Shown piece after piece: positions 54,415 through 64,000 of a stretch of 64,000 bases of DNA. Below the pieces are notes generated by a model. That model worked only from the letters and a program-made list of their open reading frames with translations. It searched no databases and was not told where the DNA came from. The position numbers and the translations under genes were made by a program. The first letter of the stretch is position 1, and the number at the start of each line of letters is the position of its first letter. The stretch comes from Salegentibacter lacus (GTDB taxonomy: Bacteria; Bacteroidota; Bacteroidia; Flavobacteriales; Flavobacteriaceae): positions 62,001-126,000 of the forward strand of contig NZ_JAIQZB010000008.1 in NCBI RefSeq assembly GCF_020164555.1, given 5' to 3'.

Positions 54415-54780
54415 ATGAAACGATTAACTAATAAAGAAGAGGAAGTAATGCGCATTCTCTGGCAATTGGAGAAAGCCTTTGTAAAGCAGATAATACCACA
54501 TATCCAGGACAAAAAATTGCATTACAATACGGTTTCTACTATTGTAAGACATTTAGAAGATAAAGGTTTTGTAGCTCACGAGGCTTATGGGAACACCCAT
54601 CAATATTACCCTGTAATTACCAAAGAAAAATACAGGAAGCATATTATGAGTTTAACCTCAAAAAGATTTTTTGATAACTCATATAAAAGTATGGTTTCCT
54701 TTTTCGCTAAAGAGGAAAAAATTAGCGCCGATGAGCTTCGGGAAATCCTTGAGATTATAGAAAAGGATAAAAAGGAATAA
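54415..54780 (+). CDS. BlaI/MecI/CopY-family repressor
   Basis: A 121-residue winged-helix repressor. The N-terminal domain MKRLTNKEEEVMRILWQLEKAF and LHYNTVSTIVRHLEDKGFV with YPVITKEKYRK match BlaI, and the C-terminal helices mediate dimerisation. In classic systems the adjacent BlaR1-type peptidase removes this repressor when a signal binds. The next gene starts three bases after its stop, so the two form an operon that probably controls itself. Confidence 0.94.
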   Translation: MKRLTNKEEEVMRILWQLEKAFVKQIIPHIQDKKLHYNTVSTIVRHLEDKGFVAHEAYGNTHQYYPVITKEKYRKHIMSLTSKRFFDNSYKSMVSFFAKEEKISADELREILEIIEKDKKE

Positions 54781-54783
54781 TCT

Positions 54784-56901
54784 ATGGAAGCATTCCTAAT
54801 CTATCTTCTTAAAGGTGCCAGCTTATTGAGTATTTTTTACCTGGTCTATATTTTCTTGTTAAAGAATGAAACTAATTTTCAGGTAAACCGCAAATTTTTA
54901 CTTAGCGGCATTTTTGCATCTGCCTTTTTACCAGCAATTTACTTTACACGAAAAGTAATTGTTGAAGCAAATAACTTTTCTTTCAACAAAATTCCTGTAA
55001 ATACAAATGCTTCTTCAGAAGATTTAGTTTCAAACTTTGGGATTTGGGAAGTTTTGGGGTTTATTTATTTTCTTATTACTGCATTTTTCTTATTTAGGAT
55101 TTTTGTTCAGCTTTTCAAAATTCAGAAACTCATTAATCGAAGCACTGTTTACAAAGCTGAAGGTTTTAACTTCCTCAAAACCGAAGCTACAGTAAGTCCG
55201 TTTTCCTTCTTCAAATTCATCGTTTACAATCCTACAGCCCATTCAGAAAAAGATCTGATAATGATTCTGCATCACGAAAAAATACACGCAGCGCAATGGC
55301 ATTCTGTAGATATACTAATCGCCAACCTCACCACTGCCCTACTCTGGTTTAACCCTTTAAGCTGGTTGTATAAAAAAAGCGTGGAACAAAACCTGGAATA
55401 TATCGCCGACAGGGAAACGGTAGCTATTTCGGGAGCTAAAAAATCGTATCAACAAACCCTGGTAAAGGTTTCTATCGCAAATTTACAACCAGCGCTTACC
55501 AATCATTTTTATCAATCATTTATTAAAAAACGAATTCTTATGCTGAATAAAAAATCATCTCAAACCTCTAGTCTATGGAAAATAAGCCTTGTTTTTCCTT
55601 TAGTCCTGGCTTTTATGCTCGCTTTTAATGTAAAGACTGAAGCGCAAACAAAAAAATCTGAATATACGGTAGAAGGTGTTCAGGTAAATAAATCGGTTTC
55701 ATCGGTTATTACAAAATTTTCTAAGCAAGAAAGTTTAGAGAGAATTTCTAAGGTTTTTGAGAAATTTGATATTGAACTTGAGTTTTCCGAACTTGAATAT
55801 TCCAGTGAAATACTTACCAGTATAAAAGTTTCATTCTTAAACAAAAAAACCAACGAAACGGGTGTTTTCTCGGCCAGTAATTCAGAAGGAGTTGAATCTT
55901 TTGAAATCTTTACAGATAAAAAAGAAACCGGTTTTAGAAAAGCCAACACCCTTATGGGAAAAGGAGCTATTTCTTCTAACGGAAGTCTTTTAGGCAAGCT
56001 TGGTAAACATCCCTTATATGTTATAGATGGGAAAAAATATACTTCTAAAGAATTAGACGGGAAATATCTGGATATTTCCGATGGAGGAATCAGTATTTTC
56101 CTGGCTGAAGAAGCAAAAACAAAATTTGGAACTGAAGCGCAGGATGGAGCTATTATTACAAAGAGTGCCAGGATTATAGATGATTTACAGAAAGAATTTA
56201 AAAAAATTGATAAGGAAAATTCTGAAGCTAAACGAGAATTTCTGCAAATAGAATATGGCAAATCACCGAGTTTAATTTCCCTGGAAACTAATTTCAAGGA
56301 GAAGAAAAAAACCAAAAACAAAAAGTTAGTACAAGCCTCCACAGATCCTAAGGAGATCCCTGGAAATCCAATTTATATTTTAAATGGTGAAAAAAGTAAA
56401 AAAGAGATTATAGGCCTTATCGATCCAAAACTGATTGAGAGTGTAAACGTATTAAAAGGAGAAAGCGCTACTTCGCTGTATGGCGAAGATGCAAAAGACG
56501 GTGCGGTGATCATTACTACCAAGGTTTTGGATAAATCTAAAAAAGAAGATACTAAAAAAGGGAAAGGATATTCAATTGGAATTCAGAGATTTCAAAAGAA
56601 AACCGATTATGAAATTATAAAGGGAGGACTTAGTTTCCAGACGGGAGAAGATATCAATGCATTTCAATGGAATAAAGAACCTGACGAAAAAATCAATTTT
56701 TACCTTAACGACGAGGAAAAAAATAGACCGTTAGTAATTATTGATGGCAAAAAGGCAAATGAAACTACTCTAAAGGAAATTGATCCTCAGAATATTGAAA
56801 GAATAAATGTTCTAAAAGGTGAAGGTGCAATTGAAAAGTATGGCAATAAAGCCGATTATGGAGCTATAGAAATTACTACCAAAAAAGAAATCAAAGAATA
56901 A
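54784..56901 (+). CDS. BlaR1-like M56 metallopeptidase with three TonB-plug-like C-terminal repeats
   Basis: A 705-residue membrane protein. The N-terminal part has three transmembrane helices, then the cytosolic M56 zinc protease with HEKIH at residues 164-168 and downstream NLEYIADRE near 205. A fourth helix (about 268-283, SLVFPLVLAFMLAFNV) leads to a ~420-residue extracytoplasmic tail with no penicillin-binding sensor. The tail has three related segments: HPLYVIDGKK (~408), GNPIYILNGEKS (~526) and RPLVIIDGKKAN (~648). The last two are followed by VNVLKGESATSLYGEDAKDG and INVLKGEGAIEKYGNKADYG, like TonB-receptor plug domains. Paired with a BlaI repressor. Confidence 0.9.
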   Translation: MEAFLIYLLKGASLLSIFYLVYIFLLKNETNFQVNRKFLLSGIFASAFLPAIYFTRKVIVEANNFSFNKIPVNTNASSEDLVSNFGIWEVLGFIYFLITAFFLFRIFVQLFKIQKLINRSTVYKAEGFNFLKTEATVSPFSFFKFIVYNPTAHSEKDLIMILHHEKIHAAQWHSVDILIANLTTALLWFNPLSWLYKKSVEQNLEYIADRETVAISGAKKSYQQTLVKVSIANLQPALTNHFYQSFIKKRILMLNKKSSQTSSLWKISLVFPLVLAFMLAFNVKTEAQTKKSEYTVEGVQVNKSVSSVITKFSKQESLERISKVFEKFDIELEFSELEYSSEILTSIKVSFLNKKTNETGVFSASNSEGVESFEIFTDKKETGFRKANTLMGKGAISSNGSLLGKLGKHPLYVIDGKKYTSKELDGKYLDISDGGISIFLAEEAKTKFGTEAQDGAIITKSARIIDDLQKEFKKIDKENSEAKREFLQIEYGKSPSLISLETNFKEKKKTKNKKLVQASTDPKEIPGNPIYILNGEKSKKEIIGLIDPKLIESVNVLKGESATSLYGEDAKDGAVIITTKVLDKSKKEDTKKGKGYSIGIQRFQKKTDYEIIKGGLSFQTGEDINAFQWNKEPDEKINFYLNDEEKNRPLVIIDGKKANETTLKEIDPQNIERINVLKGEGAIEKYGNKADYGAIEITTKKEIKE

Positions 56902-58071: not shown

Positions 58072-59346
58072 ATGATGAAAAAATACCTTTTACTAAGCAT
58101 CTTTTGTTTTTCGATAATTAACCTTAACTCTCAATCCTGGAAAAAGCTTCCAGCTAATGGAGAAGCACAAGAGCGCCACGAAAATGCCTTTGTACAGGCG
58201 GGAAAGCGTTTTATTTTAATTGGAGGTCGTGGTAATAAACCCATTGATATCTATGACACCGAAAACCAAATCTGGAAAAAAGGCGCTCAACCTCCCCTTG
58301 AAATTCATCATACCCAGGCGGTTAGCCTCGACGGACTTGTTTATGTTTTAGGTGCTTTTACTGGCGGCTGGCCAGATGAAGATCCTATTCCCAATATTTA
58401 TATCTACGATCCGCTGGAAGATCTCTGGATTAAAGGCCCGGAAATTCCCGAAGACAGAAGGCGTGGTGCCGCGGGGGTTGCGGTAAAGGATAAAAAAATC
58501 TATTTGATAAATGGAATTAGGAATGGCCATACCTCAGGTTGGGTTAACTGGTTTGATGAATATGATGTTTATAAAAATGAATGGAAAAAACTTCCTGATT
58601 CGCCTAATGAACGAGATCACTTTCAGGCTGTAATAACTGAAAATATACTTTTTGTTGCCGGTGGAAGAAAATCGGGAAGTGTTGAAGGCAACGGATTTGC
58701 AGGCACGGTAAAACCTACCGATATCTATGATTTTGATGCTGAAAAATGGAAATCTATTACTGAAATCCCTACTCCCAGGGGCGGCACTGCAATTGGACTT
58801 TTAGATAATAATCCGGTTATTTTGGGCGGTGAAAGTGACACCCAGGAAGCTGCGCACAATGAAGCTGAAATTTATGATCTCGCCAAGGGAAAATGGGACA
58901 GTTTACCACCTTTAAAACAAGGCAGGCACGGTACCCAGGCTATCACCATTAATAAACAAATTATTATTGGTGCCGGTAGTGGGAATCGCGGTGGCGGTCC
59001 TGAACTAAATTCTTTTGAAGTTTTCTCAAAAGATAATTCCCTTAATTTCAGCACCGAAGCTATCCTAGCTGGCTCACTAAAAGCTTCAGCCGACAATCTT
59101 AATTTTCCAAAAGAAGAAACAAAAAGTGTAAGAATTTCCCATAAAGGAGGCAACCAGGCCATTATTATTACCGAGATAAGCATTAGCGATGGCTTTAGTC
59201 TTATAAATAAGAAAAGCCTACCCTTTGTTTTAGCGCCACGTTCAGAATTTGAACTAGAAATAAAGGGAAATCAAGATCCCGGAGAACTACACGTTAAAAC
59301 AGCAGGAAAAAAAGAAGGCATAAGGCTTAATCTAAATAAAAAATAG
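58072..59346 (+). CDS. Secreted Kelch-repeat beta-propeller protein
   Basis: A 424-residue exported protein (signal YLLLSIFCFSIINLNSQS). About six Kelch blades follow, each with paired Gly and Trp: FILIGGRGNKPIDIYDTE, YVLGAFTGGW, IYLINGIRNG, LFVAGGRKSGS, PVILGGESDTQE and IIIGAGSGNRGGGP. The last ~110 residues form a separate beta-sandwich (SLKASADNLNFPKEETKSVR then LAPRSEFELEIKGN) like ASPM/SPD-2/Hydin-type or choice-of-anchor domains. No catalytic copper ligands as in galactose oxidase were found. Probably binds glycan or protein partners at the cell surface. Confidence 0.88.
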   Translation: MMKKYLLLSIFCFSIINLNSQSWKKLPANGEAQERHENAFVQAGKRFILIGGRGNKPIDIYDTENQIWKKGAQPPLEIHHTQAVSLDGLVYVLGAFTGGWPDEDPIPNIYIYDPLEDLWIKGPEIPEDRRRGAAGVAVKDKKIYLINGIRNGHTSGWVNWFDEYDVYKNEWKKLPDSPNERDHFQAVITENILFVAGGRKSGSVEGNGFAGTVKPTDIYDFDAEKWKSITEIPTPRGGTAIGLLDNNPVILGGESDTQEAAHNEAEIYDLAKGKWDSLPPLKQGRHGTQAITINKQIIIGAGSGNRGGGPELNSFEVFSKDNSLNFSTEAILAGSLKASADNLNFPKEETKSVRISHKGGNQAIIITEISISDGFSLINKKSLPFVLAPRSEFELEIKGNQDPGELHVKTAGKKEGIRLNLNKK

Positions 59347-59532: not shown

Positions 59533-61197
59533 ATGAGCAAAACTAAACCTGGAAACCCGGTAAAACGACTTTGGAACTTACTCAAACTAGATAAGCGCGA
59601 TGTAAAACACATACTTTTCTATGCACTTTTTGCGGGTTTAATAAATTTAGCGGTCCCTTTGGGAATCCAGGCTATTGTTAATCTAATCCAGGGAGGCAAA
59701 GTTAGTACCAGCTGGGTTATTCTGGTAATTTTAGTAACGCTCGCCGTAGGTTTAGTTGGCGTTTTTGAATTATTACAGCTCAGGCTGGCAGAGAATATTC
59801 AGCAAAAGATTTTTACCCGTTCAAGCTTCGAATTTTCATACCGGTTTCCAAAAATTAAGAGCGAAGCCTTACAAAATATTTATCCTCCTGAATTGGCAAA
59901 CCGTTTTTTCGACACCTTAACGGTTCAAAAAGGGGTAAGTAAAATTTTATTAGATCTGCCTTCAGCTACGGTACAAATTATCTTTGGTGTAATCTTATTA
60001 TCTCTCTATCACCCATTCTTTATTTTATACGGATTATTACTTGTTCTACTCCTTTACATCGTTTTTAAATTTACCGCTGAAAAAGGTTTAAAAACCAGTT
60101 TAGATGAATCGAAGCATAAATATGAAGTTGCTTATTGGATTCAGGAAATAGCCCGAAATTTAAAAAGCTTTAAAATTTCAGGCCGCAGCAAACTCGCGCT
60201 TGACAAAAACGACAGGCTTACTGCAAAGTATTTAAAAGAAAGAGAAGATCATTTTGGGGTGCTTAAGACCCAATATATTAAGCTTATTATTTTTAAAGTT
60301 CTTGTCGCCGGTGGTTTATTGGCTATTGGAGGTATTCTGGTTTTAAACCAACAAATGAATATTGGTCAATTTGTGGCTGCAGAGATCATTATTTTATTGA
60401 TAATTTCTTCTGTAGAAAAATTAATCCGCGGGCTTGAAGATATTTACGACACCTTAACGTCACTGGAAAAACTAGGCCAGGTAGTAGACAAACCTCTGGA
60501 AGAATTTGAAAATCAGAATACTATAAATGCTTCAAATGGCCTTAAACTAGAACTAAAGGATGTAGCTTTTGAACCCGAAGGCCACACGGTTTTAAAAGGT
60601 ATTAATGTCACCTTAGAACCCGGAAAAATTTTAGCCATCACAGGACCTGCAGGAAATGGCAGAACCAGTCTTTTAAAATTAATAGCAGGTATTTTCACTC
60701 CTACTCAGGGAAAGATTTACATTAACGATACTGCCAGGCATACCCTGGTTTTAAATGAGTACAGGCAACACCTGGGCACTTATTTACCCGATGAAATTCC
60801 TTTTGAAGGAACCCTGTGGGAAAACATAACTTTTGGCGACACTTCTATTTCTGATCAGAATATAGATTGGGCTTTAGAACATTCAGGCCTAAAGGAGTAT
60901 GTAAAAGATCAACCCAATGGAATATTTACTCAAATTCATCCGGAAGGAAGGTACCTTTCTACACTTATATCAAAGCGTATAATCATTGCACGAGCTATTG
61001 TAAAAAAACCTTCTATTCTTATTTTAAAGGAACCTTTTGAGAAATTTGAACTTTCAGAAAGAAAAAGATTATTAAAGTTTTTAACCGATTCAGAAAATAA
61101 ATGGAGCCTTATTATAGCCAGCAATGACAAATTATGGAAAGAAGTATGTGATGAACGCCTGGAATTACAGGACGGTAAAATTGTTAAAGCCCTGTAG
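59533..61197 (+). CDS. Type I secretion-style ABC protein with degenerate nucleotide-binding domain
   Basis: A 554-residue half-transporter: five to six transmembrane helices (residues ~25-330; LINLAVPLGIQAIVNLIQGG resembles the bacteriocin/RTX exporter class) and a C-terminal ABC domain. All catalytic motifs are altered. Walker A is GPAGNGRTS (371-379) with Arg377 in place of Lys; the Q-loop position is Pro419 (GTYLPDE); the signature region is LSTLIS (475-480); Walker B is ILILKEPF with Lys499 for Asp, although Glu500 remains; the H-loop reads IIASND. No N-terminal peptidase domain. ATP turnover is therefore doubtful. It is followed by HlyD and TolC genes at gaps of 2 and 8 bases, so it is the inner-membrane part of a tripartite complex. 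Confidence 0.9.
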   Translation: MSKTKPGNPVKRLWNLLKLDKRDVKHILFYALFAGLINLAVPLGIQAIVNLIQGGKVSTSWVILVILVTLAVGLVGVFELLQLRLAENIQQKIFTRSSFEFSYRFPKIKSEALQNIYPPELANRFFDTLTVQKGVSKILLDLPSATVQIIFGVILLSLYHPFFILYGLLLVLLLYIVFKFTAEKGLKTSLDESKHKYEVAYWIQEIARNLKSFKISGRSKLALDKNDRLTAKYLKEREDHFGVLKTQYIKLIIFKVLVAGGLLAIGGILVLNQQMNIGQFVAAEIIILLIISSVEKLIRGLEDIYDTLTSLEKLGQVVDKPLEEFENQNTINASNGLKLELKDVAFEPEGHTVLKGINVTLEPGKILAITGPAGNGRTSLLKLIAGIFTPTQGKIYINDTARHTLVLNEYRQHLGTYLPDEIPFEGTLWENITFGDTSISDQNIDWALEHSGLKEYVKDQPNGIFTQIHPEGRYLSTLISKRIIIARAIVKKPSILILKEPFEKFELSERKRLLKFLTDSENKWSLIIASNDKLWKEVCDERLELQDGKIVKAL

Positions 61198-61199
61198 AT

Positions 61200-62567
61200 A
61201 TGCTGAATATTTCTGAAGAAAAATTACACGAGCGTATAGATATTACCGGAACTAAATCTGGAAAATTCGTATTTTTTAGAAAGCACTATGCGATTTTTAA
61301 TTATGTACTTATTGGATTATTTATCTTATTCATAATTATTCTCTTTCTACCCTGGACTCAGAATATTAGGGCTACGGGAAATGTCACCACCTTAAGCCCT
61401 GAACATAGGCCTCAAACAATTCAATCTCCCATCCCGGGACGTATTGAACAATGGTATATTGATGAAGGGGATTTTGTAAATAAAGGAGATACTATTTTAA
61501 GGATTTCTGAAGTTAGCAGCGATTATTTTGATCCTTTACTCATCAATAGAACTTCCAGCCAGATAGAAGCGAAAAATCAATCGGCCAACTCTTATGACGA
61601 AAAGATTGGGGCTCTTCGGCAGCAATTAGAAGCACAGCAAGAGGAACGGAAATTAAAACGAAGTCAGGCCATTAACAAGATAGAACAAGCGCGTTTAAAA
61701 GTAAGAAGCGACAGCATAAAGCTTGAAGCCGCACAAACACAGGTAGAAATTGCGAAAACACAATTTGAAAGACTCCAAACTTTGCAGGAAGAAGGTTTAT
61801 ATTCCCAAACCGATTTGGAGGCCAGACGCTTAAAATTACAGGAAGCCCAGGCAAAGCTCATCGCCCAGCGAAATGACCTTTTATCAAGCAAAAACCAGGT
61901 AATTAACGCTGAGATCGAGATCAATAGAATTAGAGCTGAATATGCTGATAAAATTTCCAAAACCCAACAGGAAATTTTCACCACACAAAGTAACCAATTT
62001 GGCACCCGTGCTGAAGTTGACAAGCTTCAAATCCAGCTTTCAAATTACGAACAGCGTAGCAGTTTATATTATATTCTGGCACCCCAGGATGGTTATGTAA
62101 ATAAAGCTTTGCGTGCCGGTTTAGGCGAGACATTCTCACAAGGAGAACAATTGGTGGGCATTATGCCATCTAACTATCAAATAGCGGTAGAAACCTATGT
62201 AAGGCCATTAGACCTGCCACTAATACACGTAGGTGAAGATGTGCGCATTCAATTTGATGGATGGCCTGCAATTATTTTTAGCGGTTGGCCAAACCTTTCT
62301 TATGGAACTTATGGTGCAGAAGTAGTAGCGGTAGAAAATTACATTTCGAAAAACGGAAAGTACAGGGTTTTACTTGCTCCAGACACCGAAGACAATCTCT
62401 GGCCCGAACAAATAGGAATTGGAAGTGGTGCTCAAACCATTGCCCTCTTAGAAAATGTCCCTATTTGGTACGAGCTATGGCGAAATTTAAATGGATTCCC
62501 ACCTAATTATTATGAACAGGGTGAGAATGCTCAGACTGAGACCTCAAAAAGTAATAATAAAAAGTAG
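61200..62567 (+). CDS. HlyD-family periplasmic adaptor protein
   Basis: A 455-residue membrane-fusion protein that bridges the ABC protein and TolC. One N-terminal transmembrane helix (YVLIGLFILFIIILFLPW), then the split lipoyl-like domain (RPQTIQSPIPGRIEQWYIDE with GDFVNKGDTILRIS, and YYILAPQDGYVNKALRAGLG). A long antiparallel coiled coil (residues ~125-280) is rich in Gln/Glu/Arg (QQEERKLKRSQAINKIEQ). A C-terminal beta domain follows. Length of the coiled coil resembles type I secretion adaptors rather than RND adaptors. Confidence 0.94.
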   Translation: MLNISEEKLHERIDITGTKSGKFVFFRKHYAIFNYVLIGLFILFIIILFLPWTQNIRATGNVTTLSPEHRPQTIQSPIPGRIEQWYIDEGDFVNKGDTILRISEVSSDYFDPLLINRTSSQIEAKNQSANSYDEKIGALRQQLEAQQEERKLKRSQAINKIEQARLKVRSDSIKLEAAQTQVEIAKTQFERLQTLQEEGLYSQTDLEARRLKLQEAQAKLIAQRNDLLSSKNQVINAEIEINRIRAEYADKISKTQQEIFTTQSNQFGTRAEVDKLQIQLSNYEQRSSLYYILAPQDGYVNKALRAGLGETFSQGEQLVGIMPSNYQIAVETYVRPLDLPLIHVGEDVRIQFDGWPAIIFSGWPNLSYGTYGAEVVAVENYISKNGKYRVLLAPDTEDNLWPEQIGIGSGAQTIALLENVPIWYELWRNLNGFPPNYYEQGENAQTETSKSNNKK

Positions 62568-62575
62568 ACTAATAA

Positions 62576-63952
62576 ATGCGCTTAGTACACTATTTTTCTA
62601 TTCTATTCTTTATTTGTTCTTCGGCGTTTGCCCAAACAGACAGCCTAAGTTATACCGAATTTTTAGATATAGTAATTAGTGAGCATCCTGTAGTTAGCCA
62701 GGCCGGACTGGTGAGAAATATAGGCGATGCCGAAGTACAATCGGCAAGAGGTGCCTTCGATCCCAGGTTTGAGGTAGATTATAAAGAAAAGGAATATAAA
62801 GGCACCGAATATTACGATCTTCTTGATGCTCAACTTCAAGTCCCAATGTGGTACGGATTGAAATTAAAAGGCGGTTTTCAGCAAAGTCAGGGCGCATATG
62901 TTAATCCACAAAACAAGGTGCCGGATGCCGGATTATTTCAGGCCGGTGTCATTTTATCCCTGGGAGAAGGACTCTGGATTAATTCACGAATGGCCGGTTT
63001 ACGCAAAGCACAGGTATATAGGGAGCAAAGCAGAGCTGAACAGCAACTGATTATAAACGATATACTACTCGATGCTTCTTTTGTCTATTTTGAATGGGTA
63101 AGAGCCCACCAGAAATTAAAAATATTTGAAGATTTTTTAGAAAACGCCAACGAGCGTTACAGCGGAATTAGGCGCGGGGCCGAAATTGGGGAAATTGCAG
63201 GAATAGATACAGTGGAGGCGAGTCTAAATATCCAAAAACGTAGGTTGCAAGCCAACCAGGCGTCGGTAGAACTTAGAAAAAAACGGCTGGAACTTTCAAC
63301 TTATCTATGGGACCAGGATCAACCCCTTATTTTGCAAGAACAGGTATTGCCGGTAGGTACCGATGAAGTTTTTAGTACCCTGATTTCTGAAATTCCCGAG
63401 GCAAATTTTGACACCCACCCGCAATTAGAATTTTACAGACGAAAAATAGAAGCGCTGCAAATAGAAAAGCGTTATCGCATTAATCAGCTATTACCAAAGA
63501 TAGATTTAGAGTATAATTTTCTTTCAGAAGAACCCGATAATTTTGAAACCTTTAATGCCAATGCCTACAAAGCAGGTGTTAAGTTTTCTATGCCTTTATT
63601 TCTGAGAAGAGAACGCGGGGATCTCAAGATAGCCGAATATGAGCTACAAGACGCCAAACTGGAACTCAGTCTAAAAGACAACCAGTTACAAGCAAAAATT
63701 AATGCTATAGAACAACAATTGCAGGCTTTTTTAGAACAAATTGAGATGACCGAGCAAATGGTTGTTGATTCTAACGCCCTACTTCAGGCCGAAGTGCGTA
63801 AATTTAATTTTGGAGAAAGTTCAATATTTTTAATAAATACCCGCGAAACCAGGTTTATTGAAGCCAGGCTGGAGCAATTAGATCTTCAGATTAAATATTT
63901 AAAAACCCAGGCAGAATATCTGCAAGCCCTTGGTGGAAATCCTGTACAGTAA
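62576..63952 (+). CDS. TolC-family outer-membrane channel
   Basis: A 458-residue protein with signal peptide (FSILFFICSSAFAQ). Two TolC-type repeats are visible: LVRNIGDAEVQSARGAFDPR with the beta strands FEVDYKEKEYKGTEYY, and in the second half YRINQLLPKIDLEYNFLSEE with AYKAGVKFSMPLFLRRERGD. The helical hairpins are rich in Gln, Leu and Ala. It completes the tripartite exporter. Its stop is 48 bases before the window end, so it is unclear whether more genes follow in the operon. Confidence 0.93.
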   Translation: MRLVHYFSILFFICSSAFAQTDSLSYTEFLDIVISEHPVVSQAGLVRNIGDAEVQSARGAFDPRFEVDYKEKEYKGTEYYDLLDAQLQVPMWYGLKLKGGFQQSQGAYVNPQNKVPDAGLFQAGVILSLGEGLWINSRMAGLRKAQVYREQSRAEQQLIINDILLDASFVYFEWVRAHQKLKIFEDFLENANERYSGIRRGAEIGEIAGIDTVEASLNIQKRRLQANQASVELRKKRLELSTYLWDQDQPLILQEQVLPVGTDEVFSTLISEIPEANFDTHPQLEFYRRKIEALQIEKRYRINQLLPKIDLEYNFLSEEPDNFETFNANAYKAGVKFSMPLFLRRERGDLKIAEYELQDAKLELSLKDNQLQAKINAIEQQLQAFLEQIEMTEQMVVDSNALLQAEVRKFNFGESSIFLINTRETRFIEARLEQLDLQIKYLKTQAEYLQALGGNPVQ

Positions 63953-64000
63953 ACAAAACGCCATTAATTTATACAGCAGATTCCCGAAATCTATGCTAAT

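Follow-up and report, generated by a model that had tools for sequence, protein, structure and literature searches.

A putative pseudo-ATPase ABC exporter subunit in a HlyD/TolC operon of Salegentibacter lacus and its relatives in Bacteroidota

The stretch of Salegentibacter lacus DNA analysed here (64,000 nucleotides, positions 62,001 to 126,000 of contig NZ_JAIQZB010000008.1, hereafter the window) carries at 59533-61197 an uninterrupted frame for a protein of 554 amino acids, an ATP-binding cassette (ABC) exporter half-transporter and pseudo-ATPase whose gene is followed by those of a HlyD-type adaptor and a TolC-type outer membrane factor. On balance the evidence tips towards a tripartite HlyD/TolC exporter, akin to type I secretion systems (T1SS) and peptidase-containing ABC transporters (PCAT), with this protein as its inner-membrane subunit; ATP hydrolysis by the protein's own nucleotide-binding domain (NBD) would have been abandoned across much of Bacteroidota, and export would be driven by a gradient. 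The features concerned are listed below with the basis of each call (ORF, open reading frame; TMD, transmembrane domain; TM6, transmembrane helix 6).

59533..61197, + strand: pseudo-ATPase ABC exporter half-transporter, TMD ~8-325 and NBD ~336-554 (ORF, Pfam, alignment, model)
59554..60507, + strand: TMD, residues 8-325, the conserved part (ortholog identity, model)
60136..60174, + strand: coupling helix 2 and its approach, residues 202-214, with W202, E205, R208, F213 and K214 (model, alignment)
60382..60384, + strand: Glu284 in TM6, candidate ion-coupling residue (alignment, model)
60538..61194, + strand: degenerate NBD, residues ~336-554 (alignment, ortholog identity)
60661..60663, + strand: Walker A Lys replaced by Arg377, in GPAGNGRT (alignment with controls)
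60787..60789, + strand: Q-loop Gln replaced by Pro419, spacing as in the controls (alignment with controls)
60955..60969, + strand: signature LSGGQ replaced by LSTLI, residues 475-479 (alignment with controls)
61027..61032, + strand: Walker B Asp replaced by Lys499, catalytic Glu500 retained (alignment with controls)
61123..61125, + strand: H-loop His replaced by Asn531 (alignment with controls)
61200..62567, + strand: HlyD-type periplasmic adaptor, 455 amino acids (ORF, profile search)
62576..63952, + strand: TolC-type outer membrane factor, 458 amino acids, two OEP stretches (ORF, profile search)

Catalytic motifs and conservation of the two domains

Motif positions in the NBD were set by aligning the protein with seven further ABC proteins of exporter type from this genome, taken from 22 matches. 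The Walker A Lys, Q-loop Gln, Walker B Asp, H-loop His and second Gly of the signature are present in 7/7 of these controls, the exceptions at other positions being LSSGQ in one and an Asp at the catalytic Glu in one. The initial annotation held that every catalytic motif of the window protein is changed. This stands for Lys377Arg, Gln419Pro, the LSGGQ signature, Asp499Lys and His531Asn, but not for Glu500, which is retained together with Walker A Thr378 and the P-loop glycine frame; Glu500 is all that remains of the functional ATPase motif set.

The protein otherwise has the make-up of the ABC exporter superfamily (type IV/B-like fold). It scores above the Pfam gathering cut-offs for both domains (ABC_tran 70.6 bits, cut-off 25; ABC_membrane 41.8 bits, cut-off 28), and the AlphaFold2 model built from an 83-sequence alignment is a complete six-helix exporter TMD plus NBD, with a mean predicted local distance difference test score (pLDDT) of 94. 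Foldseek matches this model to HlyB (8dck_B, TM 0.90 over 544 columns), the PCAT1 core (8voz_A, TM 0.90) and PrtD (5l22_B, TM 0.83), TM287/288 being comparable (TM values are normalised by query length). ORFs, Pfam and this confident model agree with the early description of an intact frame, a normal TMD and closely spaced HlyD and TolC genes, with 2 bases from the ABC stop to the HlyD start and 8 from the HlyD stop to the TolC start. The HlyD gene matches only itself in the genome (E<=1e-5). The genome stands close to Salegentibacter, at 91% protein identity to S. tibetensis.

Relatives are widespread and form a family with a sharp boundary. Among 299 Flavobacteriaceae genomes searched, 177 have a match at E<=1e-60. 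In a scan of the phylum Bacteroidota, 92/296 pass 1e-30, and the boundary shows as a gap: 76 matches reach at least 4.7e-77 and the one that follows stands at 1.6e-35. A first alignment comprised 163 distinct members besides the window protein, 154 of them with an NBD; the enlarged set, which adds 40 loci and the window protein itself, has 168 NBD-bearing rows. L145 and L168 (= G796; L and G numbers are our handles for loci and genomes), open-ended at a contig or stretch edge, were left out of the alignment, and L097, whose frame is broken in two, counts towards the motif figures but is left out of the tree for its length. LSGG occurs in 0/154 rows of the first alignment and 0/168 of the enlarged set. 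The other canonical residues are found, in the same order, as Walker B Asp in 33 and 37 rows, catalytic Glu in 41 and 44, H-loop His in 18 and 21, Walker A Lys in 137 and 150, and Q-loop Gln in 7 and 7, a soft count because in some relatives its position may be off by one residue (e.g. SQED-IF). An Asp or Glu occupies the catalytic position in 144/168.

The substitutions of the window protein, put forward initially as a possible conserved pattern (R377/P419/K499), did not turn out to be one. Arg377 is present in all 9 Salegentibacter-type rows and overall in 12/154, most members keeping the Walker A Lys, and position 499 is Glu in 56, Lys in 44 and Asp in 33 of the 154. R377 was accordingly discarded as a family hallmark. 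Nor do most orthologues have intact motifs, the finding that was to have marked a recent decay. Family-wide motif loss, together with the low substitution rate ratios given below, excludes a recent decay confined to one genome, and comparison of the sequences indicates that motif degradation is old and lineage-wide.

Lys, Asp, Glu and His are found together in 14/168 rows, all within one basal side-clade, recovered in two trees of the family, that also lacks LSGG. The basal phylum members L127, L131 and L132 are nearest to canonical, with LSTGQ/LSTGE and intact Walker A, Asp-Glu and His; they could be true ATPases and a useful reference state. A second route of decay is seen in L118 and L195 (f7 genomes), where Walker A is wholly gone (GxxGxGK replaced) at unchanged protein length; L188, L198 and L199 are likewise devoid of Walker A.

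The two domains are unequally conserved. Median identity to 28 Flavobacteriaceae orthologues is 68.9% for the TMD and 42.0% for the NBD, the latter being lower in 28/28. The order is inverted in one canonical exporter of the same genome, where the TMD stands at 60% identity (58-61% over seven orthologues) and the NBD at 67% (64-69%), higher in 7/7. Ten Salegentibacter-type rows, two of which seem identical, give 45 pairs. Their median ratio of nonsynonymous to synonymous substitution rates (omega) is 0.031 over the 35 pairs usable for the TMD and 0.083 over the 34 usable for the NBD, rough values with the synonymous rate Ks near saturation. These ratios indicate purifying selection on both domains, with the NBD held far less tightly than the TMD. 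Omega far below 1, a kept operon and family-wide motif loss all speak for the earlier proposal of a retained, non-canonical function under selection.

Members without a nucleotide-binding domain

Part of the family has no NBD. The phylum scan contained four TMD-only proteins and a class scan more of them among the matches listed. In three other families, frames not exceeding 424 residues, which cannot hold both TMD and NBD, were found in 11/39 matched genomes (101 searched), 27/76 (81 searched) and 19/71 (80 searched), a total of 57/262 genomes searched. The 36 NBD-less loci that were read come from 35 of these genomes (one has two copies) and code for 329-369 amino acids; the remaining 22/57 are judged by frame length and may include contig-edge cases. 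G962, with a frame of 402 amino acids and a match from base 212 of its contig, stands outside the f3 count. HlyD and then TolC genes lie downstream in 36/36 of the NBD-less loci read. An origin of these 36 as assembly artefacts was ruled out. Among 13 NBD-bearing loci read alongside them, there is a HlyD match in 12/13 and a TolC match in 13/13. In genome G1074 the system occurs three times, twice without and once with the NBD (L211, L212, L238).

In a TMD tree of 129 rows all 36 NBD-less rows fall in one clade, with a Shimodaira-Hasegawa-like approximate likelihood ratio test (SH-aLRT) support of 99. This clade adjoins eight degenerate NBD-bearing rows of one family that are also without the Walker A Ser/Thr. 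The HlyD tree (96 rows) likewise unites its 9 NBD-less rows (SH-aLRT 100), and this agreement suggests that adaptor and TMD share their history. Several independent NBD deletions were considered; the tree favours one. The simplest order of events would be motif decay, then NBD deletion, then diversification of the stripped form. Since this form is found in three families with interleaved branches, it has probably moved between families. Its ratio of nonsynonymous to synonymous differences (pN/pS) is 0.14-0.47 in 36 pairs and 0.14-0.25 in 10 pairs among five f3 rows, pS being near saturation. Because the TMD is conserved above the NBD and is kept by the NBD-less clade, it appears to be the part under selection.

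Coupling helix 2 is a part of the type IV exporter fold that docks on the NBD. Its fate was followed at 98 TMD positions conserved at 85% or more in 152 degenerate NBD-bearing rows, where W202 (152/152) and F213 (151/152) are practically constant. The six such positions at 202-214 are kept at 36% in NBD-less rows, compared to 87% in 13 close NBD-bearing relatives. In the NBD-less rows this is the least kept of 93 sliding windows of six conserved positions each, overlapping windows being low for the same reason; intracellular loop 1 (ICL1, 104-141) is kept at 94% and all positions outside 199-216 at 84%. The drift was first visible with 9 NBD-less rows. As residues 202-214 are held in NBD-bearing and drifted in NBD-less rows, NBD-bearing members seem still to dock a dead NBD and NBD-less members to have stopped docking any, the membrane core remaining constrained.

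Energy for export and competing explanations

The initial annotation left three options for such a protein: a scaffold with a dead or very slow ATPase, a heterodimer with an active ATPase encoded elsewhere, or export driven another way. The last fits best, heterodimerization is the weakest and the scaffold stands in between. We favour ATP-independent export driven by an ion gradient, by analogy with engineered NBD-less MsbA and LmrA. MsbA stripped of its NBD still expels ethidium with a pH gradient and makes cells tolerant to erythromycin (PMC4979069), and proton-coupled transport by LmrA requires Glu314 of TM6 (PMC6155054). Two copies of the TMD could pair into the dimer typical of exporters, positioned beneath the HlyD-TolC conduit, and move out a compound, probably small, toxic or amphipathic, by alternating access, with power drawn from an ion or substrate gradient rather than from ATP. 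Buried acidic residues such as Glu284 are candidate coupling sites, and the NBD of window-type members would be a docked structural or regulatory appendage.

Glu284 lies in the last TMD helix of the model (277-318) and is acidic in 203/204 family rows, including 36/36 NBD-less ones; Lys/Arg255, Glu/Asp295 and Lys296 near it are also nearly constant. Like Glu314 of LmrA it is a TM6 acid, their positional equivalence being only a candidate. MsbA-MD and LmrA-MD are laboratory constructs engineered from active pumps and, like the members described above, consist of an exporter TMD without NBD; here the deletion is a natural one, inside a HlyD-TolC operon, and known from sequence.

More tentatively, we propose as a possibility that a natural lineage of Bacteroidota has turned an ABC exporter into a secondary-active HlyD-TolC pump through motif decay and, later and on one branch, NBD deletion, followed by spread of the stripped form through three families. 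If bound ATP locked such a pump, as in the MsbA mutant without Walker A Lys, full loss of the NBD might even, speculatively, be an advantage. NBD-free pumping by ABC exporter TMDs is a question that has so far rested largely on truncated MsbA and LmrA constructs. The same cut appears to have arisen in nature, within operons that retain the matching adaptor and outer-membrane duct, so that the question is now open to direct tests with natural proteins. Annotators should be aware that this ABC protein, widespread in Bacteroidota, probably does not function as an ATPase.

Several observations weigh against gradient-driven export or the history proposed for it. E205 is kept in 38% of the 13 close NBD-bearing rows, and part of the coupling-helix drift may thus predate NBD loss. 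The cytosolic helices are still conserved in NBD-less forms, which could mean a cytosolic partner. Glu284 is a Glu in 15/16 rows of the basal clade, where the Walker motifs are mostly intact, and an Asp stands in its column in one of the seven control exporters. Being present in the basal clade, Glu284 is a family trait, and its gain together with ATPase loss was ruled out. The Walker A Lys found in most NBD-bearing rows leaves room for nucleotide binding to persist in many members. The 28 orthologues compared are the best-scoring loci outside Salegentibacter rather than a random sample, the conservation inversion is set against one control exporter, and the trees are quick searches with midpoint drawing roots. 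The TetR-type neighbour that hints at small-molecule efflux in other loci is not in the window.

Among the alternatives, a scaffold without active pumping, in which the TMD dimer would anchor or gate the HlyD-TolC bridge for signalling or envelope tethering, is unlikely but survives best. It would accommodate the tolerated loss of the energy module in a diverse clade, the inclusion of cytosolic N123, R124, K133, S193 and K196 among the most conserved TMD residues and the want of any visible cargo. A mere anchor should nonetheless need less than the strong constraint seen on the whole membrane core, including Gly and Pro of the transmembrane helices. The TetR-type regulator found upstream in 42/101 loci (identified by Pfam in three) also points away from a scaffold, hinting that in some members the efflux of a harmful compound may be inducible.

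Less credible is residual or switch-like use of ATP, with a degenerate NBD that binds or very slowly hydrolyses the nucleotide and so drives or gates export. Retention of the Walker A Lys and of an acidic residue at the catalytic position would suit it, as would purifying selection on the NBD and the constancy of W202 and F213; activity is conceivable in the 14 basal members that retain K, D, E and H. Such use of ATP is more plausible where Walker A is intact than in the window protein. Arg377, Pro419, Lys499, Asn531 and the missing signature of the latter speak against it, as does the persistence of a nested, conserved NBD-less clade. MsbA without Walker A Lys is, moreover, blocked and not driven by ATP (PMC4979069).

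It is quite improbable that a canonical ABC half or a free NBD from elsewhere supplies hydrolysis in a heterodimer or trans-complex, as happens in TmrAB or TM287/288. Heterodimeric exporters often have degenerate sites, ABCG5/G8 having a Walker A Lys to Arg change in its own, and a composite site is made of Walker A and B of one NBD and the signature of the other (PMC7756269). At least 7 exporter-type ABC proteins of the genome are near-canonical, and the conserved cytosolic helices of NBD-less forms would suit a trans partner. TmrAB, TM287/288 and ABCG5/G8 share a non-canonical Walker B/H-loop with the proteins described here, whose Walker B, His and signature are however mostly lost on one and the same NBD, so that no canonical composite site could form with any partner. 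No partner gene is linked either, HlyD being directly downstream in nearly all loci. The nearest paralogue in the genome matches at only 3e-25; co-occurrence with unlinked exporters was examined for one paralogue, which is present in 8/41 genomes. Search of 9/36 NBD-less loci over up to 16 kb found no NBD ORF in 8, and a trans partner would also have to be reconciled with the drift of 202-214 where the NBD is missing and with a nested sister branch without any NBD. In the ninth of these loci, a 282-amino acid ORF with a canonical-type NBD match (L166:13019-13867) lies ~4.3 kb downstream of the NBD-less operon.

Decay to a non-functional gene is in effect refuted: nearly all catalytic motifs are altered, the system is dispensable (no 1e-60 match in 122/299 Flavobacteriaceae genomes), L097 is in two frames and a single internal stop occurs in three Flavobacteriaceae rows and in G576, G379, G633 and G1082, but the window protein and the vast majority of the rows listed have an intact frame, omega is far below 1 in both domains, the operon is kept and the TMD is well conserved (median 69% identity to the 28 orthologues).

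Related systems and gene neighbourhood

By fold and operon the window system is best described as an ABC/T1SS-type tripartite exporter, and judged by its motifs it is no longer an ATPase. It shares the TMD and NBD fold and the gene order with T1SS/PCAT exporters (HlyB, PrtD, PCAT1) working with HlyD and TolC, including the adjacent HlyD and TolC genes by which T1SS are recognised; it differs from them in the lost catalytic motifs, in having no recognised cargo gene nearby and in the clade without NBD. NCBIfam scores are below the curated cut-offs for LssB (166.3; 693.1), PrtD (146.9; 510.15) and HlyB (145; 725.55), and also far below that for the NHLM type. Basal and some other relatives have an N-terminal extension. 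The model of L110, a long class-level relative, is modest (mean pLDDT 79) and aligns best with whole PCAT1 and HlyB over 682-730 columns, at a root-mean-square deviation of 14-25 that reflects different domain placement. This alignment places the probable origin of the family among C39-domain T1SS/PCAT exporters, with fold comparison alone pointing to C39: Pfam (E<=5) found no C39 domain in six N-terminal extensions, two of which had weak unrelated matches. MacAB-TolC and the resistance-nodulation-division (RND) tripartite pumps have the same three-part envelope-spanning architecture, with inner-membrane folds different from that of the ABC exporter. Among the matches listed in the open PMC literature (titles and abstract starts, and passages of the reviews PMC8277102 and PMC7756269; subscription journals and preprints lie largely outside it), no description of this family or of a natural NBD-less ABC exporter was found, which is weak evidence of absence.

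The operon is stable. Of 103 widely flanked loci, 100 have HlyD no more than 200 bp downstream (exceptions L097, L128 and L176), and a TolC-like gene is found within 2.5 kb in 97/101 (the same exceptions and L127). No type I secreted substrate was obvious in gene-order strings read by eye or among 17 neighbour proteins submitted to Pfam, the neighbours being unclustered. No second ABC half, which the initial annotation suggested looking for beyond position 64000, lies in the operon. The 11.5 kb read after the window contain none of the 22 genome matches (1e-5), and among their complete ORFs of at least 150 amino acids no ABC protein was seen by eye. What looks on reading like an operon of TolC, RND adaptor and RND pump begins about 4 kb into this stretch (L251:4580-10201); it has no ABC half.

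A Kelch-repeat gene with a signal-peptide-like N-terminus (58072-59346, same strand) stands directly upstream in the window, where TetR sits elsewhere. It adjoins the operon in 7/8 named Salegentibacter loci (L038-L045) and is unlabelled in the other gene-order strings. Further upstream, 54415-56901 codes for what we take to be a BlaI-like regulator followed by an M56/BlaR1-type peptidase-like membrane protein. The membrane protein has repeated TonB-plug-like segments (LNGEK...IESVNVLKGE...GAVIITTK), as read from the translation.

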